Positions 31,238 to 41,101 of a stretch of 64,000 nt of DNA are shown piece by piece. The stretch is taken from contig JAUIMB010000002.1 of assembly GCA_030432635.1 (NCBI GenBank), positions 124,001-188,000 on the forward strand, written 5' to 3'. The notes beneath the pieces were generated by a model. It was not told the origin of the DNA, ran no database searches, and saw only the letters and a program-made list of their open reading frames with translations. The DNA comes from Bacteroidia bacterium. Its GTDB lineage: Bacteria; Bacteroidota; Bacteroidia; Flavobacteriales; Flavobacteriaceae. A program made the position numbers and the translations under genes. Numbering within the stretch: the stretch's first letter is position 1; the number at the start of each line of letters is the position of its first letter.

Positions 31238-33037
31238 TTAAATACTCTTATTTCGCTTGCGTTCTACTTCCTTTAGGAAAATTTTTCGTAATCGAAGATG
31301 GTTAGGTGTTACTTCGACATATTCGTCTTTTTGGATATACTCCAATGCCTCTTCCAAGGAAAACTTAATCGCAGGCACAATCTTCGCCTTATCATCAGCT
31401 CCAGCACTACGCACATTACTCAACTTTTTGGTCTTTGTGACATTCACGGTCATATCGTCACCACGTGAATTCTCTCCAATCACCTGACCTTCATAAATAT
31501 CCTCGCCTGGATCAATGAAGAATTTTCCTCGTTCCTGAAGTTTATCTATTGAATATGGAATGGCTTGGCCATTTTCCATAGACACCAAACTTCCATTTTG
31601 GCGCTCAGGAATACCACCTTTCAAGGGTTGATATTCCTTGAAGCGATGCGCCATAATTGCTTCACCTGCCGTAGCCGTCAATAATTGGTTACGCAGCCCA
31701 ATAATACCTCGTGATGGGACGATAAATTCGCAAACCATACGATCTCCTTTCGCTTCCATGCTTAACATTTCACCTTTACGCATCGTGACCATTTCAATGG
31801 CCTTTCCCGATACTTCTTCTGGCAAATCTATGGTCATCTCTTCAACAGGTTCGCACTTAACACCATCAATCTCCTTTATGATAACTTGTGGCTGACCAAT
31901 TTGTAGTTCATAGCCTTCACGTCGCATGGTTTCGATGAGTACCGATAAATGCAAGACACCTCTACCATAAACCATGAACTTATCTGCACTATCGGTATCT
32001 TCAACACGTAGTGCAAGATTCTTTTCCAATTCCTTGGTCAATCGTTCCTTGATATGACGAGAAGTGACATACTTTCCGTCCTTTCCAAAAAATGGCGAAT
32101 CATTAATCGTAAATAACATGCTCATTGTTGGCTCATCAATAGCGATGGTTTTTAGACCTTCAGGCTGTTCTAAATCGGCAACGGTATCACCAATTTCAAA
32201 ACCTTCCAAACCAACTAGTGCGCAAATATCTCCAGCTTCCACCTCATCTACTTTTTTACGACCCAGACCTTCAAAGACGTGGAGTTCCTTTATTTTAGAT
32301 TTCACAATGCTTCCATCACGCTTTACCAGAGATACTTGTTGCCCTGACTTCAACTCACCACGTGTTAAACGTCCAATAGCGATTCGTCCTGTAAATGATG
32401 AGAAGTCCAAGGAAGTAATAAGCATTTGGGTTGTACCTTGCTCAATCTTTGGCGAAGGAATATGTTCAATTACCATATCCAACAGAGGCTCAATATTTTC
32501 AGTTTCATTTTGCCAATCCTCACTCATCCAATTGTTCTTAGCTGAACCGTATACCGTTGGAAAATCCAATTGCCACTCCTCTGCTCCAAGTTCGAACATC
32601 AAATCAAACACCTTTTCATGAACCTCATCTGGCGTGCAGTTTTCCTTATCAACTTTATTGATCACCACACAAGGTTTTAAGCCTAAATCTATGGCTTTTT
32701 GCAATACGAAACGTGTTTGCGGCATCGGACCTTCAAAAGCATCGACCAATAGCAATACACCATCAGCCATATTCAATACACGTTCGACCTCACCACCAAA
32801 ATCGGCGTGACCAGGCGTATCAATGATATTGATTTTCGTGTCCTTGTAGGTCACCGAAACATTTTTAGAGGTAATTGTAATTCCACGTTCACGCTCTAAG
32901 TCATTATTATCCAAAATCAAATCGCCTGTATTCTCGTTTTCACGGAATAACTGGCAATGATACATGATTTTATCAACCAAGGTCGTTTTACCATGATCGA
33001 CGTGTGCGATAATCGCAATGTTTTTAATCGTAGCCAT
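31238..33037 (-). CDS. typA: GTP-binding protein TypA/BipA
   Basis: A 599-residue translational GTPase of normal family length. N-terminal G domain: G1 [10 protein letters not shown], switch [11 protein letters not shown]3 [10 protein letters not shown] and G4 NKVD. Then the EF-G-like domains II, III and V, and the C-terminal segment [15 protein letters not shown] typical for BipA. It acts on ribosomes in 50S assembly, stress and cold adaptation. It is flanked by its own terminator and by a -7 element at 33061-33068, and is not part of the neighbouring island. Confidence 0.95.
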
Positions 33038-33796: not shown

Positions 33797-34615
33797 ATGC
33801 AGCTCTCTGAAGTACCTAAACTTAAACATACCGATTCGGATAACTTCTTTTTGCTTTGTGGTCCATGCGCCATTGAAAGCGAGGATATGGCCTTGAGAAT
33901 TGCCGAAAAAGTTGTTTCTATAACCAATACCTTAGAAATACCCTATGTTTTCAAGGGCAGTTTCAAGAAAGCCAATCGCAGCCGTATCGATAGTTTTACT
34001 GGAATTGGTGATGAAAAGGCTTTAAGAATCCTGAAGAAAGTGTCCGATACTTTTGATATCCCAACCGTAACCGATATTCATGAAACCAGTGATGCCGAAA
34101 AAGCTGCCGAATATGTTGATGTACTGCAAATTCCAGCGTTTTTGGTTCGGCAAACAGATTTGGTTGTTGCTGCAGCTAAAACTGGAAAAGTCGTGAATCT
34201 CAAAAAAGGTCAGTTTATGAGTCCGGAATCCATGAAACATGCTGTTCAAAAAGTAAAGGATTCTGGAAGCGACAAGGCATGGATTACCGATCGTGGAACC
34301 ATGTTTGGCTATCAGGACATGATTGTTGATTTTAGGGGAATTCCTACCATGAGAGCCATAGCTCCTACGGTTTTGGATGTCACACATTCGCTACAGCAAC
34401 CCAATCAAAGTGCTGGTGTTACGGGTGGACGACCAGATATGATCGAAACCATTGCTAGAGCAGGTGTGGTCAATAAGGTTGATGGTTTGTTTATTGAAAC
34501 ACATTTCGATCCTGCCAATGCCAAAAGCGATGGTGCCAATATGTTACATCTTGATAATCTAGAGCGTTTACTTTCAAACTTAACTGCAATAAGAAAAACC
34601 GTCAATAGTTTATGA
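33797..34615 (+). CDS. kdsA: 3-deoxy-8-phosphooctulonate synthase
   Basis: A 272-residue TIM-barrel enzyme that condenses arabinose 5-phosphate and phosphoenolpyruvate to Kdo 8-phosphate, a step of lipopolysaccharide core synthesis. Landmarks are LLCGPCAIES, YVFKGSFKKANRSRIDSF, VTDIHE, LQIPAFLVRQTDL, NLKKGQFMSPE, DRGTMFGYQDMIVDF and VFDATHS-like LDVTHSLQQP. The length is normal. Its stop overlaps the start of the next small gene by 4 bases. Presence implies an LPS-containing outer membrane. Confidence 0.95.
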   Translation: MQLSEVPKLKHTDSDNFFLLCGPCAIESEDMALRIAEKVVSITNTLEIPYVFKGSFKKANRSRIDSFTGIGDEKALRILKKVSDTFDIPTVTDIHETSDAEKAAEYVDVLQIPAFLVRQTDLVVAAAKTGKVVNLKKGQFMSPESMKHAVQKVKDSGSDKAWITDRGTMFGYQDMIVDFRGIPTMRAIAPTVLDVTHSLQQPNQSAGVTGGRPDMIETIARAGVVNKVDGLFIETHFDPANAKSDGANMLHLDNLERLLSNLTAIRKTVNSL

Positions 34616-35468: not shown

Positions 35469-35846
35469 TTAAGACCTTTGTTTTCTGATAAGCTTAAACG
35501 GGTTGGTATTGAGTTCTAATTGGTGATTGAGTACATATACAATAGGTTCATCCAGAATATCCTGAACCGACTTATAACGCAAGGATGTTACCGTTTTTCT
35601 ATTGGAGTTCTCGAATAATTCAGTGAACTCCATCATTTCATCACGATGCCAAAACCCCAAATCGACATAATCCTTGGATTGATTTAAGAAACATAAGGGA
35701 ATTCCATTGTAAAAATAGAAAGGGATTTTCCATTTGAATAATAATTCAGCTTCAGGAACTACTGCTTCAATGATTGATTTAAGATGCAAGAGTATGGACC
35801 TGTAAGGTTCATCTTGATTTATGATATAGGCTTCGGCTGGATTCAC
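35469..35846 (-). CDS. DUF1801-family protein
   Basis: A 125-residue cytoplasmic protein with the DUF1801 outline: AYIINQDEPYRSILLHLKSII, PEAELLFKWKIPFYFYNG, LGFWHRDEMM and RYKSVQDILDEPIVYVL. The family is small, widespread and of unknown function. It is convergent with the GNAT gene, with one base between them, and divergent from the membrane-protein operon whose operator lies 69 bases away. Confidence 0.82.
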   Translation of the reverse strand: MNPAEAYIINQDEPYRSILLHLKSIIEAVVPEAELLFKWKIPFYFYNGIPLCFLNQSKDYVDLGFWHRDEMMEFTELFENSNRKTVTSLRYKSVQDILDEPIVYVLNHQLELNTNPFKLIRKQRS

Positions 35847-35914
35847 AATTTTTAATTAGCGATTAATGTAAAATTAATAAAAAATTATAGCGTAAAATTA
35901 AAATAAAATTATTT

Positions 35915-35937
35915 ACTTTGTATTTCAAAGTACTTTA
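35915..35937 (+). promoter_or_regulatory. 23-bp operator-like element, copy 1
   Basis: The element is ACTTTG-N5-CAAAGT followed by ACTTTA: a perfect 6-bp inverted repeat with 5-base spacer plus a third half-site. It ends 5 bases before the ATG at 35943. An identical 23-bp copy lies at 37048-37070, upstream of the next operon. Perfect identity over 23 bp next to a winged-helix regulator gene supports an operator. It would overlap or follow a -7-like ACTTTG box. Confidence 0.65.
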
Positions 35938-35942
35938 TTATT

Positions 35943-36554
35943 ATGAGCAATGAAGATTATTTAAAAGACATCAGTGAGATCAAGAACCTAATGAATAAAT
36001 CCTCGCGCTTTATTTCACTTAGTGGTTTATCTGGAATTTTAGCAGGAATCTATGCACTTATAGGTGCGGCAGTCACCTATTGGCTTGTTATGACATACAG
36101 TGGAGGCACATTGTTTATATTTCATGGTTGGGTGTTTTGGGTGAGCATGGGAATTCTTTTTTTGGTTGCTCTACTTAGTGTTCTTACAGGTGCTTTCCTC
36201 ACTATGCGAAAAGCAAAAAAGAATAGCGAGCATATTTGGGATAACTCGTCACGTCGGTTGCTTTTTAACTTTTTGGTACCCTTGGTTGTAGGTGGCATTT
36301 ATTGTCTTATCATTTTATATCAAGGAAGATATGGACAGACAGCTGGATTGATGCTTATATTTTACGGTTTGGCCTTGGTAAGCGCCTCAAAATATAGTTT
36401 AGGTGATATTAGATATTTGGGATATATTGAAATAATTCTTGGGCTTATTGCAAGTTATTATGTAGGCTACGGATTTTGGCTTTGGGTTTTGGGATTTGGC
36501 ATTATGCACATAGTCTATGGAACCTGGATGCACTTTAAATACGATAGGCAATAG
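35943..36554 (+). CDS. polytopic membrane protein (regulator-linked)
   Basis: A 203-residue protein with a 30-residue polar N terminus (SNEDYLKDISEIKNLMN) and six hydrophobic segments. The sequence contains LSGLSGILAGIYALIGA and later GFGIMHIVYGTWMHFKYD. I recognise no named domain. The gene precedes the winged-helix regulator gene by 48 bases on the same strand, and both lie under the operator copy 1. A membrane sensor for the regulator is possible but is inference. Confidence 0.72.
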   Translation: MSNEDYLKDISEIKNLMNKSSRFISLSGLSGILAGIYALIGAAVTYWLVMTYSGGTLFIFHGWVFWVSMGILFLVALLSVLTGAFLTMRKAKKNSEHIWDNSSRRLLFNFLVPLVVGGIYCLIILYQGRYGQTAGLMLIFYGLALVSASKYSLGDIRYLGYIEIILGLIASYYVGYGFWLWVLGFGIMHIVYGTWMHFKYDRQ

Positions 36555-36602
36555 CATATAGCATGCCTTGTCATTTTAGTAATTTAAACTAAACAGTAAA
36601 TC

Positions 36603-36893
36603 TTGAGTATCATCAACAACATAAATAAAGTCTTTGACCATCGTATTCGGTTGGGCATTATGTCGATTTTAATGGTGAACGAATATGCCGATTTTAATAC
36701 GCTGAAGGAATTACTAGGTGCTACAGATGGCAACTTGGCCAGTCATTCCAAAGCGCTTGAAAAAGCTGAATACATTAAAGTTGAAAAACAGTTTATCGGC
36801 AGAAAACCTAATACACGTTACGCTACCACAAAGTTAGGTAGAGCTGAATTTAAAAAACATATTGAAGCATTGGAAAAGTTAATTGGTGGCTAG
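36603..36893 (+). CDS. winged-helix (HTH_34-type) transcriptional regulator
   Basis: A 96-residue DNA-binding protein. The sequence FDHRIRLGIMSILMVNEYADFNTLKELLGATDGNLASHSKALEKAEYIKV fits the HTH_34 winged-helix family, followed by a wing (RKPNTRYATTKLGRAEFKKHI). The start is TTG 36603, since the upstream in-frame stop at 36597 leaves no ATG. It is the natural candidate to bind the two 23-bp elements that flank it. Such small regulators commonly control the adjacent membrane genes. Confidence 0.85.
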   Translation: MSIINNINKVFDHRIRLGIMSILMVNEYADFNTLKELLGATDGNLASHSKALEKAEYIKVEKQFIGRKPNTRYATTKLGRAEFKKHIEALEKLIGG

Positions 36894-37047
36894 TGGAAAA
36901 AAAGAAAATTTTCAAAACCTAATAAATATCCGTTTCAAAAACTTTAAACAGAAACAAACGATTAAACCGAAAATCATGACAAATACTAAATCATGTCTAA
37001 CAGATGATAGTCTTAACTAAAACAAGGAACATTTTTTTTATAATTTC

Positions 37048-37070
37048 ACTTTGTATTTCAAAGTACTTTA
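37048..37070 (+). promoter_or_regulatory. 23-bp operator-like element, copy 2
   Basis: Identical to the element at 35915-35937 over all 23 bases (ACTTTG-N5-CAAAGT, then ACTTTA). It ends 12 bases before the ATG at 37083, the first gene of a six-gene membrane-protein operon, so both operons probably answer to the same factor. Confidence 0.65.
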
Positions 37071-37082
37071 AATCTTAACCAT

Positions 37083-38492
37083 ATGAAACGAATCGCTATT
37101 ATTATTGCCTCTTTCCTCTTCAGTATGCTTTTTTTTGAAAAACATATCGGACTAAACCTATCGCTCTTTTCCATCATCTCAGTGGTACTACTCTACATCT
37201 ATAACCCAAAACAGTTTCGTCATAAACCTACCATACTTTACGCACTCGTTTATCTAATCACTGCTGCATTTGTTTTTGTAAACCATTCGGTGTTATCAAT
37301 AATTGCCAATTGTGCCGCATTTTTAAACTTAATAGGTGTTGTCTCCCAGAATAAGACATCAATATATGTGCAATGGTTAAATGGAATATTTAGTGCCATC
37401 GCAGGATTATTGTATAGAACTTTCGAAAAGGACAGCCATAAAAATACTACTCATTGGAAAAAAGACATTGACATACTTCACCTCAGCAAACTCATAGGTA
37501 TTCCGTTGGTATTTATGGTCGTGTTTGTATTGCTTTATAAAAATGGAAATCCGATTTTTGAGACCCTTATTTCAAAAATCAATTTCGATTTCATCAACCT
37601 TCAATGGTTGCTTTTTACAGTTTTGGGTTACTTCCTCTTCAGCAATATCTCACAGCCTGTCGTTGTGGAACCTGCAACTTCAAACGACTTGAACACACCA
37701 AATCATCTTTTTAAATCCGAGCACTTTTCCGTAGATCTTCTGAAAAAGGAACAGCAAATCGGCATTACGTTACTAGGACTTCTAAATCTATTGCTTCTCC
37801 TCTACATAGCAACAGACATTATGTTTATGGTTAACACTACAACAACTGCTGCTTCAGCAATGTCGAACCAAGTGCACAATGGTATAAATACCCTCATTGC
37901 CTCCATTGTAATTGCAATTGTCATAATCCTATTTGTGTTTAGAGGCGATCTCAATTTCTATAAACACAACAGGCATCTTAGGTTACTCACATACCTGTGG
38001 ATTGCCCTTAATGTTGTATTAATTGCATTAATAGCCCTTAAAAACCAAACTTACATTACCTCATTTGGCCTTACCTACAAACGTATTGGTGTTCATGTAT
38101 ATATTTTATTGACCTTGGTTGGTTTAATCACCACCTTTTTAAAGGTTATGAACATAAAAAACCTTGCGTATTTGTTCAGGCAGAATTCAAAAATCGCATT
38201 TATTGCACTTATCATCCTTAGTACCATAAACTGGGATTATCAAATCACAAAATACAACTTGACCAGTGCCAAGGAATTTGACATTGATTATCTCATTAGG
38301 CTTTCCGATCGCAATACCATTTTGTTATATGACATTAAGGAAACACTCCAAATTTCCCAACAGCACAAGAATAGAATTGACACAAAATACTGGTTATATA
38401 TTGAAGATATGTTACAAAGTGATTGGCAAGAATACGCATACGAAACATTTGAAATTGACAACAGACATCCTAGTTATGAATTTACCGAGTAA
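37083..38492 (+). CDS. polytopic membrane protein (DUF4153/DUF4173-like)
   Basis: A 469-residue protein with about ten to twelve transmembrane helices and a soluble C-terminal tail of about 100 residues (NTILLYDIKETLQISQQHK...). GLTYKRIGVHVYILLTLVGLITT is similar to the conserved stretch of DUF4153/DUF4173 proteins. Function of these domains is unknown. It is the first gene of the operon under operator copy 2 and overlaps the next gene by 17 bases. Confidence 0.7.
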   Translation: MKRIAIIIASFLFSMLFFEKHIGLNLSLFSIISVVLLYIYNPKQFRHKPTILYALVYLITAAFVFVNHSVLSIIANCAAFLNLIGVVSQNKTSIYVQWLNGIFSAIAGLLYRTFEKDSHKNTTHWKKDIDILHLSKLIGIPLVFMVVFVLLYKNGNPIFETLISKINFDFINLQWLLFTVLGYFLFSNISQPVVVEPATSNDLNTPNHLFKSEHFSVDLLKKEQQIGITLLGLLNLLLLLYIATDIMFMVNTTTTAASAMSNQVHNGINTLIASIVIAIVIILFVFRGDLNFYKHNRHLRLLTYLWIALNVVLIALIALKNQTYITSFGLTYKRIGVHVYILLTLVGLITTFLKVMNIKNLAYLFRQNSKIAFIALIILSTINWDYQITKYNLTSAKEFDIDYLIRLSDRNTILLYDIKETLQISQQHKNRIDTKYWLYIEDMLQSDWQEYAYETFEIDNRHPSYEFTE

Positions 38493-38859
38493 TCTTTCCA
38501 AATCAAGCGTATTGGCGGCAGTTGTGTTTTGGGTCATCATTGGTGTAAAGGATTTCAACAGCGACATGATACCGTTTATGCTTTTGTCCTTTATTCCAAT
38601 ATTCCTCATGGTTACTGTTGTGATATTGCTTACTATTTGTCCGTTTTTCTGGTTAAAGGAAAACCCAAATTTCAATAAGAAAAATGTTTTCAAAACATAT
38701 TTTCCGTTCTATTCGATCATCATATTTTCCATTTGCATCTATGGAATTATTTGCTCTGGATATGATACTTATCTCATCGCATTTTTTTCATCGGTTTATA
38801 TCACTACGACTCAATCTTGGTTTTGGCTCGCAAAAGAAAAAACACATGCAAGCACTTAG
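38476..38859 (+). CDS. small polytopic membrane protein
   Basis: A 127-residue protein from ATG 38476 (MNLPSNLSKSSVLAAVVFWVII); longer frames upstream lie within the preceding gene. About four hydrophobic segments are visible. It overlaps the preceding gene by 17 bases and the following Coq4-like gene by 14, so it belongs to the same operon. No family recognised. Confidence 0.7.
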   Translation: MNLPSNLSKSSVLAAVVFWVIIGVKDFNSDMIPFMLLSFIPIFLMVTVVILLTICPFFWLKENPNFNKKNVFKTYFPFYSIIIFSICIYGIICSGYDTYLIAFFSSVYITTTQSWFWLAKEKTHAST

Positions 38860-39337
38860 GAAACGATTTATCGAATGGCTTTTTGAGCACTCTCAAAACC
38901 TATATACAAAGCTTTTCAAAGCTCATAATTCTTGGGGAATTTCCCGTCGAGAACTGCTCGCTTATCCAAGAGCGTCATTTGGTTGGCATTTGGGAAAATT
39001 TTTGGATGACAATGGGTTTGAACTCATACCAAAAGTTGAGCGACACGACGCTTACCATACCTTAACAGGCTATGGAACCAAAGTACAAGACGAAATTGCC
39101 TTGCAATGTTTGTGCTTCGGAAATGGTAAACGCAGCTTGTATTTATATGGCGCAATGACTCTTGGCATCTTAATCTTACCAGACTATTTAAGGTATTATT
39201 ACAAATCATTTCTCATCGGAAAGCAGGCCAATCCGTTTCATCATTTTGACTATAGTAAATTACTGAAGGTAAATTTTGAAACCTTTAGACATACCATTTT
39301 TTCACAAAAAACCATCCATAACATAGTTCTAAAATGA
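38846..39337 (+). CDS. Coq4-like protein with the HDxxH-x11-E metal motif
   Basis: A 163-residue protein from ATG 38846. The segment RHDAYHTLTGYGTKVQDEIALQCL has the spacing HDxxH-x11-E, the metal-binding signature of Coq4, including the LTGxxTxV core. Eukaryotic and proteobacterial Coq4 acts in ubiquinone synthesis. Flavobacteria normally use menaquinone, so a ubiquinone role would be unexpected. The rest (LYLYGAMTLGILILPDYLRYYYKSFL) is amphipathic or hydrophobic, suggesting membrane association. Overlaps the preceding gene by 14 bases. Confidence 0.7.
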   Translation: MQALRKRFIEWLFEHSQNLYTKLFKAHNSWGISRRELLAYPRASFGWHLGKFLDDNGFELIPKVERHDAYHTLTGYGTKVQDEIALQCLCFGNGKRSLYLYGAMTLGILILPDYLRYYYKSFLIGKQANPFHHFDYSKLLKVNFETFRHTIFSQKTIHNIVLK

Positions 39338-39389
39338 AGATATTTCTCGACACATACCATATAAATTGTATTCTAAAAATAGCTTCAGC

Positions 39390-40019
39390 ATGAAACACTT
39401 AAAACGTCTAACATTGATTATCGCACTAGGTATCACACTTATTCTGTTGATTAATTATAAAATTAGTCATCAAGCGAAAAACCATATATACAATACAGTA
39501 AGTGACATTCCTGAAAACAAGGTTGGCTTACTATTGGGTACAATTAAATACTTGTCCAATGGCAATGTGAACTTATATTACACCTACCGAATTGAAGCCA
39601 CTGTAGCACTCTACAAGGCTGGAAAGATAGAATTTGTACTAGTAAGTGGTGACAATAGTAGAAAATCATATGATGAACCAACGGCATTTAAGGATGATCT
39701 AATAGCGCAAGGCATACCAGAGGAAAACATCTTCCTCGACTATGCTGGTTTCCGAACTTTAGATTCGGTCATAAGGGCAAAACACATATTCGGACAAGAT
39801 TCGGTAACCATAATTTCCCAGCAATTTCATAACGAACGTGCCTTATATCTAGCCAAATACAACAAAATCAAAGCTATTGCATTTAATGCAAAGGATGTAC
39901 AAGGTCGCTACGGACTTAAAGTCCGATTACGAGAATATTTAGCAAGATCAAAAGCCGCCTTAGATGTATTATGTAACACACAACCCAAATTTTTGGGAAA
40001 ACCCATTGAAATCAAATGA
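39390..40019 (+). CDS. SanA/YdcF/ElyC-family membrane-linked protein
   Basis: A 209-residue protein from ATG 39390 (MKHLKRLTLIIALGIT), with an N-terminal transmembrane helix followed by a DUF218/YdcF-type domain: KVGLLLGTIKYLSNGNVNLYYTYRIEA, FVLVSGDNSRKSYDEPTAFKDDL, IFLDYAGFRTLDSVIRAK and ISQQFHNERALYLAKY. SanA-type proteins are linked to envelope barrier function and vancomycin sensitivity in enterobacteria; the activity is unknown. Overlaps the next gene by 4 bases. Confidence 0.83.
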   Translation: MKHLKRLTLIIALGITLILLINYKISHQAKNHIYNTVSDIPENKVGLLLGTIKYLSNGNVNLYYTYRIEATVALYKAGKIEFVLVSGDNSRKSYDEPTAFKDDLIAQGIPEENIFLDYAGFRTLDSVIRAKHIFGQDSVTIISQQFHNERALYLAKYNKIKAIAFNAKDVQGRYGLKVRLREYLARSKAALDVLCNTQPKFLGKPIEIK

Positions 40020-40423
40020 CCATCAAATTCAACAAGCCCTTTTTTGCAACAAGTCTGGTGCTGCTCTCAACAGAAATTTGCATAGCAGCATTTTTAACCG
40101 AAGGTTTCATTAGGCATACCTTTGGCGATTTTTTGGTGGTCATTTTAATCTATTGTGGACTGCGAAGTTTTTTAAACCTAAAACCTTTATATCTAGCCAT
40201 AGGTGTTTTATCATTTGCATTTCTTATAGAATTCCTTCAGAAATACAATCTGTTGGAATATTTGGGCTTGAGTCACAATAAGCTAGCCATTGTTGTGTTG
40301 GGAAGCACTTTTGAAATCACCGACCTTATTGCTTACACCTTAGGAGTTATCACCGTTTTTTTGATTGACACCATGTTTGGTAATTCCCGAACCATAAAAC
40401 AAACAGAAACCCATAAATCATAA
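40016..40423 (+). CDS. DUF2809-family membrane protein
   Basis: A 135-residue protein with four hydrophobic helices and DUF2809 features: FGDFLVVILIYCGLRSF and GSTFEITDLIAYTLGVITV. It is coupled to the preceding gene (ATGA overlap at 40016). Function unknown. Confidence 0.8.
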   Translation: MTIKFNKPFFATSLVLLSTEICIAAFLTEGFIRHTFGDFLVVILIYCGLRSFLNLKPLYLAIGVLSFAFLIEFLQKYNLLEYLGLSHNKLAIVVLGSTFEITDLIAYTLGVITVFLIDTMFGNSRTIKQTETHKS

Positions 40424-40438
40424 AAACACACTACAGTT

Positions 40439-41101
40439 ATGGACACTTTTAAAACTTTGGTATTACATAGATTCAAATTATTATCCCTATTGACCATTTC
40501 AATGGTATTGAGTATCACTTTACTCATGATACGCATGAAACTTCATCAATCCTATTATTTACTGTTTTTAGTATGGAATCTATTCTTGGCCGTGATACCA
40601 TTTACTATCACGACAATATTAATGAGTAAGCAAAGATTGCATGCGATAAGTTTTGCAGTGGTCTTTTTCTTTTGGCTATTGTTCTTGCCCAATGCTCCTT
40701 ATATCATCACAGATTTGTTGCATTTAACACGTACCAATCAACATTTTTTATGGTTGGATATTTTAGTGATCATGTCTTTTGCCTTCAACGGCTTGGTACT
40801 GTTTTTCTTGTCGCTTTCTGATATGGAAAAACTACTAAGACTTCGATTTAAGGCACACTATGTATTCGCAATGCTTCTAATCATTTTTGGACTTACAGCC
40901 TTCGGAATTTACCTTGGCAGATTTTTGAGATACAATTCCTGGGAAATCATAGATCAACCTTTTGCCTTATTTTCTGATATTTTTGACATTATTTTCAAGC
41001 CACAGGTTGAAGCTTGGATATTCACGTTAACATTTGGAAGTTTCCTGGCAGTTTCCTATTGGATACTCAAAGCCCAAAAAGAAAAAACAATTGAGGATTA
41101 A
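40439..41101 (+). CDS. DUF1361-family membrane protein
   Basis: A 220-residue protein with about seven hydrophobic segments. FWLLFLPNAPYIITDLLHL is the DUF1361 signature, followed by GIYLGRFLRYNSWEI. It is the last gene of the operon and ends immediately next to the convergent dehydrogenase gene, with stop codons abutting. Function unknown. Confidence 0.83.
   Translation: MDTFKTLVLHRFKLLSLLTISMVLSITLLMIRMKLHQSYYLLFLVWNLFLAVIPFTITTILMSKQRLHAISFAVVFFFWLLFLPNAPYIITDLLHLTRTNQHFLWLDILVIMSFAFNGLVLFFLSLSDMEKLLRLRFKAHYVFAMLLIIFGLTAFGIYLGRFLRYNSWEIIDQPFALFSDIFDIIFKPQVEAWIFTLTFGSFLAVSYWILKAQKEKTIED

Follow-up and report, generated by a model that had tools for sequence, protein, structure and literature searches.

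In enterobacteria the CreBC two-component system controls creD. HAAS-PadR-like dyads, as the passages of PMC11237479 that concern them describe, comprise a stand-alone winged-helix regulator that is always found beside its partner, often a multi-span membrane protein, and are proposed there to carry out membrane-stress signalling in place of a two-component system. According to PMC6193735, LytTR regulatory systems pair a DNA-binding regulator with a membrane protein and have conserved sites ahead of the operon that encodes them. The locus described here lies in a 64,000-nt window (the whole stretch of DNA that was analysed). Similar to the HAAS-PadR dyads, it contains a stand-alone winged-helix gene beside a membrane-protein gene, an arrangement seen in 80/80 of the loci compared below. 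As in LytTR systems, two proteins are accompanied by conserved sites before their own operon, and creD would be a target gene of this kind of locus, as it is of CreBC. We consider it probable, from sequence comparison, that both sites are operators of the winged-helix protein, a member of the HTH_34 family, which would repress its own operon (membrane protein and regulator) and the operon behind it.

The two sites and their predicted promoters

The 23-base sequence ACTTTGTATTTCAAAGTACTTTA is present at 35915-35937 and again at 37048-37070 of the window, and both coordinates of the original prediction, which described a 23-mer unchanged at two places, were confirmed. The features of the locus are as follows.

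35913-35920, forward strand: predicted -7 box of promoter 1, TTACTTTG, matching TAnnTTTG at 7/8 positions and overlapping the first half-site
35915-35937, forward strand: operator 1, ACTTTG-N5-CAAAGT with a third half-site ACTTT at 35932-35936 (from sequence and relatives)
35943-36554, forward strand: 203-aa membrane protein, candidate sensor, with no family above cut-off (profile searches, model)
36603-36893, forward strand: HTH_34 winged-helix regulator, 96 aa, TTG start (PF13601 profile, model)
37032-37039, forward strand: T8 tract upstream of operator 2, at a fixed distance from the operator, with which it stays in relatives (from sequence)
37048-37070, forward strand: operator 2, the same 23 bases as operator 1 (from sequence and relatives)
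37083-38492, forward strand: DUF4153 membrane protein, first gene of operon 2 (profile)
38476-38859, forward strand: small membrane protein with no family above cut-off (profile)
38846-39337, forward strand: Coq4-like protein, part of the profile matched (profile)
39390-40019, forward strand: DUF218 protein, SanA-like (below the NCBIfam cut-off; profile)
40016-40423, forward strand: DUF2809 membrane protein (profile)
40439-41101, forward strand: DUF1361 membrane protein (profile)

The sites had been described as ACTTTG half-sites, an inverted pair with 5-base spacing and a third copy. The inverted pair stands, its half-site centres 11 bases apart, but the third copy is ACTTT, not ACTTTG, the next base being A or T in nearly all relatives. 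Both copies do lie shortly before the start of a first gene, as had been claimed, the ATG of the membrane-protein gene coming 6 bases after ACTTT at operator 1 and that of the DUF4153 gene 13 bases after it at operator 2. The regulator gene indeed lies between the two sites; it had, however, been placed between two operons, and is probably the second gene of operon 1, as it begins only 48 bases after the gene at 35943-36554. Upstream of the locus lie conserved genes for a TypA/BipA-like GTPase and a KdsA-like enzyme (both assigned by eye) and a divergent DUF1801 gene (31238-33037, 33797-34615 and 35469-35846 of the window); of 80 loci, 37 have a member of the first gene's cluster, and 52 each have one of the second and third.

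A search of the whole genome (3,508,160 bases, ~3.5 Mb) for ACTTTG-N5-CAAAGT-ACTTT, which the original prediction had proposed, found exactly two occurrences, operators 1 and 2; the element might have turned up at many unrelated sites, and it did not. The 17-base palindrome with a free N5 spacer occurs at three places in the genome, the two operators and a third place within a coding ORF of a different contig, and its reversed control at one. At relaxed stringency, palindromes with up to two mismatches number 8 in the window against 5.84 expected, a count reached in 21/100 shuffles and hence no signal. The full pattern with up to three mismatches has 40 matches in the genome and its reversed control 29, which leaves no convincing third site above the control, and thus the regulon looks local in this genome.

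The anatomy of the sites was derived from the best 80 of 587 relatives in a scan of named genomes; these are 74-93% identical and mostly Flavobacteriaceae by title, with some genera represented by more than one species. ACTTTG, CAAAGT and ACTTT are near-fixed in logos of 80 site-1 and 75 site-2 copies, and because the mirror position on the far side of the palindrome is not conserved, the third half-site is one-sided, on the gene side. It reads exactly ACTTT in 75/80 site-1 and 72/83 site-2 copies and is missing in some downstream copies, while the start codon follows 2-5 bases past ACTTT in 78/80 site-1 copies. Three loci (L120, L123 and L188) have two downstream sites, of which the first lacks the third half-site and the second has it, or nearly so.

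The primary-sigma promoter of Bacteroidota is given, in the relevant passages of PMC9723704 and PMC7366714, as a -33 TTG and a -7 TAnnTTTG. Against this promoter, TTACTTTG in the site-1 logo is an imperfect match; TACTTTGT also fits the TAnnTTGY variant of the -7 box, as that variant is given in PMC9723704. In 43/80 site-1 copies a TTG starts at -25, which fits a first half-site inside the -7 box. This prediction, which leans on the promoter passages just cited, would put the first half-site within the -7 box, and transcription would start inside the operator. At site 1 of the window the usual TTG near -25 is lacking, and a TTG at -25 is also absent at site 2 in relatives, where a T tract stands instead. 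A run of at least 6 T between -20 and -6 is present in 68/75 site-2 copies, and most copies that lack it have an A-tract followed by T (AAAAAAATTT or similar). Where the regulator stop codon is more than 45 bases away, 16/18 copies have the T run at the operator; among nearer copies the figure is 58/65. It could be argued that the tract is the terminator of the regulator gene, but this was rejected since it stays at the operator in those 16/18 distant copies; a DNA A-tract fits better, although in Flavobacterium-like YiiX cases the T run comes after what resembles, by eye, a terminator hairpin, which argues against the A-tract reading. The gap between regulator stop and operator 2 (36894-37047) is 154 bases in the window and about 15-20 in most relatives, the T tract going with the operator.

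With a site that shares bases with the predicted -7 box and lies right against the start codon, autorepression is the best reading of the locus; we infer repression from position alone. The main rival, which we regard as unlikely, is that the regulator acts as an activator that aids RNA polymerase at the same sites and is inhibited by the membrane protein, the arrangement found in LytTR systems. The promoters do look imperfect, as activated promoters often do. The layout, with a membrane protein, a stand-alone DNA-binding protein and sites before their own operon, also resembles that of LytTR systems; in the LytTR systems of PMC6193735, however, the sites described lie upstream of the promoter, whereas the site here covers the predicted -7 box near the start codon.

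Conservation of the sites with the regulator

In a family sample of 149 genomes the full pattern, defined as ACTTTG-N5-CAAAGT-ACTTT, is present in 71, with at least two copies in 57 of those 71 rows. Regulator matches were found in 80/149; four weak ones (G046, G052, G095 and G137) and a fragment (G121) were set aside, leaving 75. Motif and regulator are then both present in 71 genomes, the motif only in 0, the regulator only in 4 and neither in 74 (Fisher p 3e-38, to be read with the genomes being related, so that it is no strict probability and the counts are not independent). All four genomes with a regulator and no exact site (G024, G028, G119 and G122) have near matches beside the regulator. 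The reversed control of the full pattern gave 0 in the family and phylum scan rows. The membrane protein occurs in 75/149 genomes, 74 of them among the 75 with a clear regulator. The exceptions are G119, in which regulator and sites persist without the membrane gene and a site lies 59 bases before the regulator match, and G121, a decayed locus (L211, about 2150-2900) with a membrane gene containing stops, a regulator cut short and no exact operators. In the kilobase before the membrane-gene remnant of G121 there is no site with up to two mismatches; between the two remnants there is a palindrome with two mismatches that lacks the third half.

Among the 80 named regulator loci the upstream site is present in 80/80 and the downstream site, behind the regulator, in 79/80; sites with at most one mismatch number 166 in the 947,161 bases of these loci, just 3 of them elsewhere. 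The membrane gene stands behind site 1, and the winged-helix gene adjoins it, in all 80. Further out, in a phylum sample, the strict pattern occurs in 47/247 genomes and a regulator match at 1e-8, often distant, in 145/247, so that only among nearer relatives is the strict form common. Twenty distant orthologues (49-59% identity), hand-picked from the 145 phylum matches, were judged by sites with at most two mismatches and at least 3/5 third-half bases. An upstream site was found in 20/20 of those picked and a downstream site also in 11/20 (one weak), with 19 matches on one strand where shuffles averaged 0.55. Many of these orthologues have AAAAGT as the second half, with the third half still ACTTT.

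The sites thus behave as operators of the winged-helix protein would, as had been predicted, in view of the co-occurrence and of places beside the regulator that are kept down to 49-59% identity as well as in the 80 nearest loci. The element was also open to being absent from orthologous loci, and the upstream site is instead retained throughout the near and the picked distant ones. Comparison of these genomes shows a three-part candidate operator that is conserved beside the regulator and whose exact form is absent where the regulator is missing, and shows operator, regulator and membrane gene to be a single evolutionary unit. Chance similarity of the sites was rejected on the genome counts, the family co-occurrence and the positions in the nearest loci.

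Binding of the HTH_34 protein to the sites is something we infer, and it could be argued that a different protein binds them, with the HTH_34 gene a bystander. We hold this to be very unlikely: the full pattern is found in 0/74 genomes that lack a regulator match or have a weak or partial one, and G119, which lacks the membrane gene, still has a site directly ahead of the regulator. That the palindrome serves not as a protein site but as an RNA hairpin in the 5' leader, with a 6-base stem and a 5-base loop, appears extremely unlikely. The 23-mer can fold (-4.3 kcal/mol), and four sites are changed on both sides at the last pair. These, however, are the only compensated changes, against 38 cells that break a pair (in 306 sites that had been chosen for few mismatches and are not independent), and with so few compensated changes a hairpin as the main function was rejected. 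Moreover, the unpaired third half-site is conserved as much as the stem, and regulator and sites stand and fall together.

The original prediction had placed weight on the perfect identity of the two copies. This did not hold up, as full 23-base identity is found in 1/75 pairs in relatives and each site class has its own spacers (TATTT and TAATT in one, AAATT and AATTT in the other), so that the identity in the window is incidental and partly luck; the constraint on the 17 specified bases, as judged from relatives, is real. A recent functionless duplication, which the 23 identical bases in the window would suit, has a negligible chance of being correct, being contradicted by these same spacers and pairs and by positions that are kept in near and distant loci, other families included.

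Cargo of operon 2 and unlinked sites

Operon 2 comprises six same-strand genes, from 37083 to 41101. In relatives the first gene behind 83 downstream sites is Coq4-like in 33, CreD in 26, DUF4153 in 15 and other or none in 9. By locus (n=80, L112-L191), CreD is present in 45, DUF4153 in 26, both in 0 and neither in 9, and the fact that the two are never in one locus suggests that they do a similar job. In the family sample CreD occurs in 47/149 genomes, 44 of which have the regulator; in the three with CreD and no regulator (G016, G053 and G109) no site was found upstream of creD in the stretches read. One DUF4153 gene, in G130 (G130:C1:330756-331892), is far from the regulator locus and has no exact operator; it is possibly a regulon member that lost its operator, or a different paralogue.

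The family and phylum listings also yielded 22 distinct sites in other genomes that are not linked to the regulator (24 rows, less one linked and one duplicate). None of the 22 lies inside a same-strand ATG-started ORF of at least 80 aa, and 21/22 have a gene start within 250 bases. Pfam searches on one member each identified a YiiX-type C92 amidase and a DoxX-like protein among the genes at these sites; the other assignments (Coq4-like, small membrane proteins) were made by eye. In five genomes (L103, L111, L193, L195 and L205) a YiiX-type C92 amidase gene begins 12 bases after an unlinked full operator, which itself directly follows what resembles, by eye, an intrinsic terminator hairpin. 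That such unlinked sites can be found shows the operator to be specific enough for locating further target genes elsewhere, in genomes other than this one. With this system DUF4153, DUF2809, DUF1361, Coq4-like proteins and CreD, which are, to our knowledge, membrane-protein families of unclear role, also gain a defined operator together with a regulator and a candidate sensor.

A proposed mechanism and its relation to known systems

The regulator matches HTH_34 (PF13601) with E 2.2e-30 and 105.1 bits (curated cut-off 27), its only Pfam match at E <= 0.001. Its model (pLDDT 92) is a winged helix alone, with a recognition helix at 42-54, a wing at 58-75 and a C-terminal helix at 77-94, and across 17 diverse regulators the recognition-helix region carries an almost invariant TDGNLASH. 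A search for viral copies of the regulator gave 7 pattern matches, none confirmed. In the model of the membrane protein (pLDDT 85.5) an N-terminal helix is followed by six more long helices; its fold search against solved structures gave no match at E <= 0.001, and 27 relatives gave scattered weak matches among the 25 of 48 families listed.

In the repression model that we favour, a winged-helix dimer would cover the inverted pair, while the third half-site would be occupied by an additional subunit or dimer. Bound protein would block RNA polymerase, given a site that includes part of the predicted -7 box and extends in the direction of the start codon. Since the regulator is a DNA-binding fold alone, without a ligand domain, the signal would probably come from the membrane protein encoded just before it, which is the simplest guess for the input. 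The state of the inner membrane may decide whether the membrane protein retains the regulator or lets it go, and release would switch on a local, exchangeable set of membrane proteins. It should be emphasized that some findings count against this model, namely the imperfect -7 match, the TTG absent in the window and at site 2, the third half-sites missing from some downstream copies, the regulator and sites of G119 without a membrane gene, and the DUF4153 gene of G130 without an exact site.

Searches of the open-licence PMC literature (DUF4153 or CreD in Flavobacteri, PF13601, HTH_34) found no description of the operator. Likewise, HTH_34 appeared in none of the 20 of 35 matches listed for winged-helix proteins of Bacteroidetes, and nothing relevant by title was seen among the 15 of 39 matches listed for CreD, Bacteroidetes, envelope and MarR; CAAAGTACTTT gave, by title and start of abstract, matches only on human disease genes. 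The best match of the regulator, both by sequence profile (E 2e-12) and by fold (TM-score 0.88), is PH1061 of Pyrococcus horikoshii (1ub9), followed among fold neighbours by YusO, PadR and MarR-like structures; PH1061 is archaeal, unlike the bacterial regulator here, and no operator or function for it was found in the open-licence PMC literature.

Currently described systems differ from this locus in their components. In contrast with the CreBC two-component system, a one-domain winged-helix protein and an unrelated site are present here. The regulator has no LytTR domain, and whereas LytTR sites are, as PMC6193735 describes them, direct repeats upstream of -35, the site here is an inverted pair over the predicted -7 box. 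Unlike the regulators of HAAS-PadR dyads, the regulator is HTH_34 and not PadR by Pfam, PadR structures being fold neighbours only, and the HAAS domain was not seen in the membrane protein of the window or among the families listed (25 of 48) for its 27 relatives. As neither defining domain was seen, the locus may work like the HAAS-PadR dyads, by analogy, but would not be a member of them. More tentatively, and with the balance of our judgement slightly against it, a multi-span membrane protein and a one-domain HTH_34 protein could form a widespread two-protein signalling unit of the phylum, separate from two-component, LytTR and HAAS-PadR systems, which senses the condition of the inner membrane and uses a three-part operator to drive an exchangeable membrane-protein cargo in which CreD and DUF4153 replace one another.
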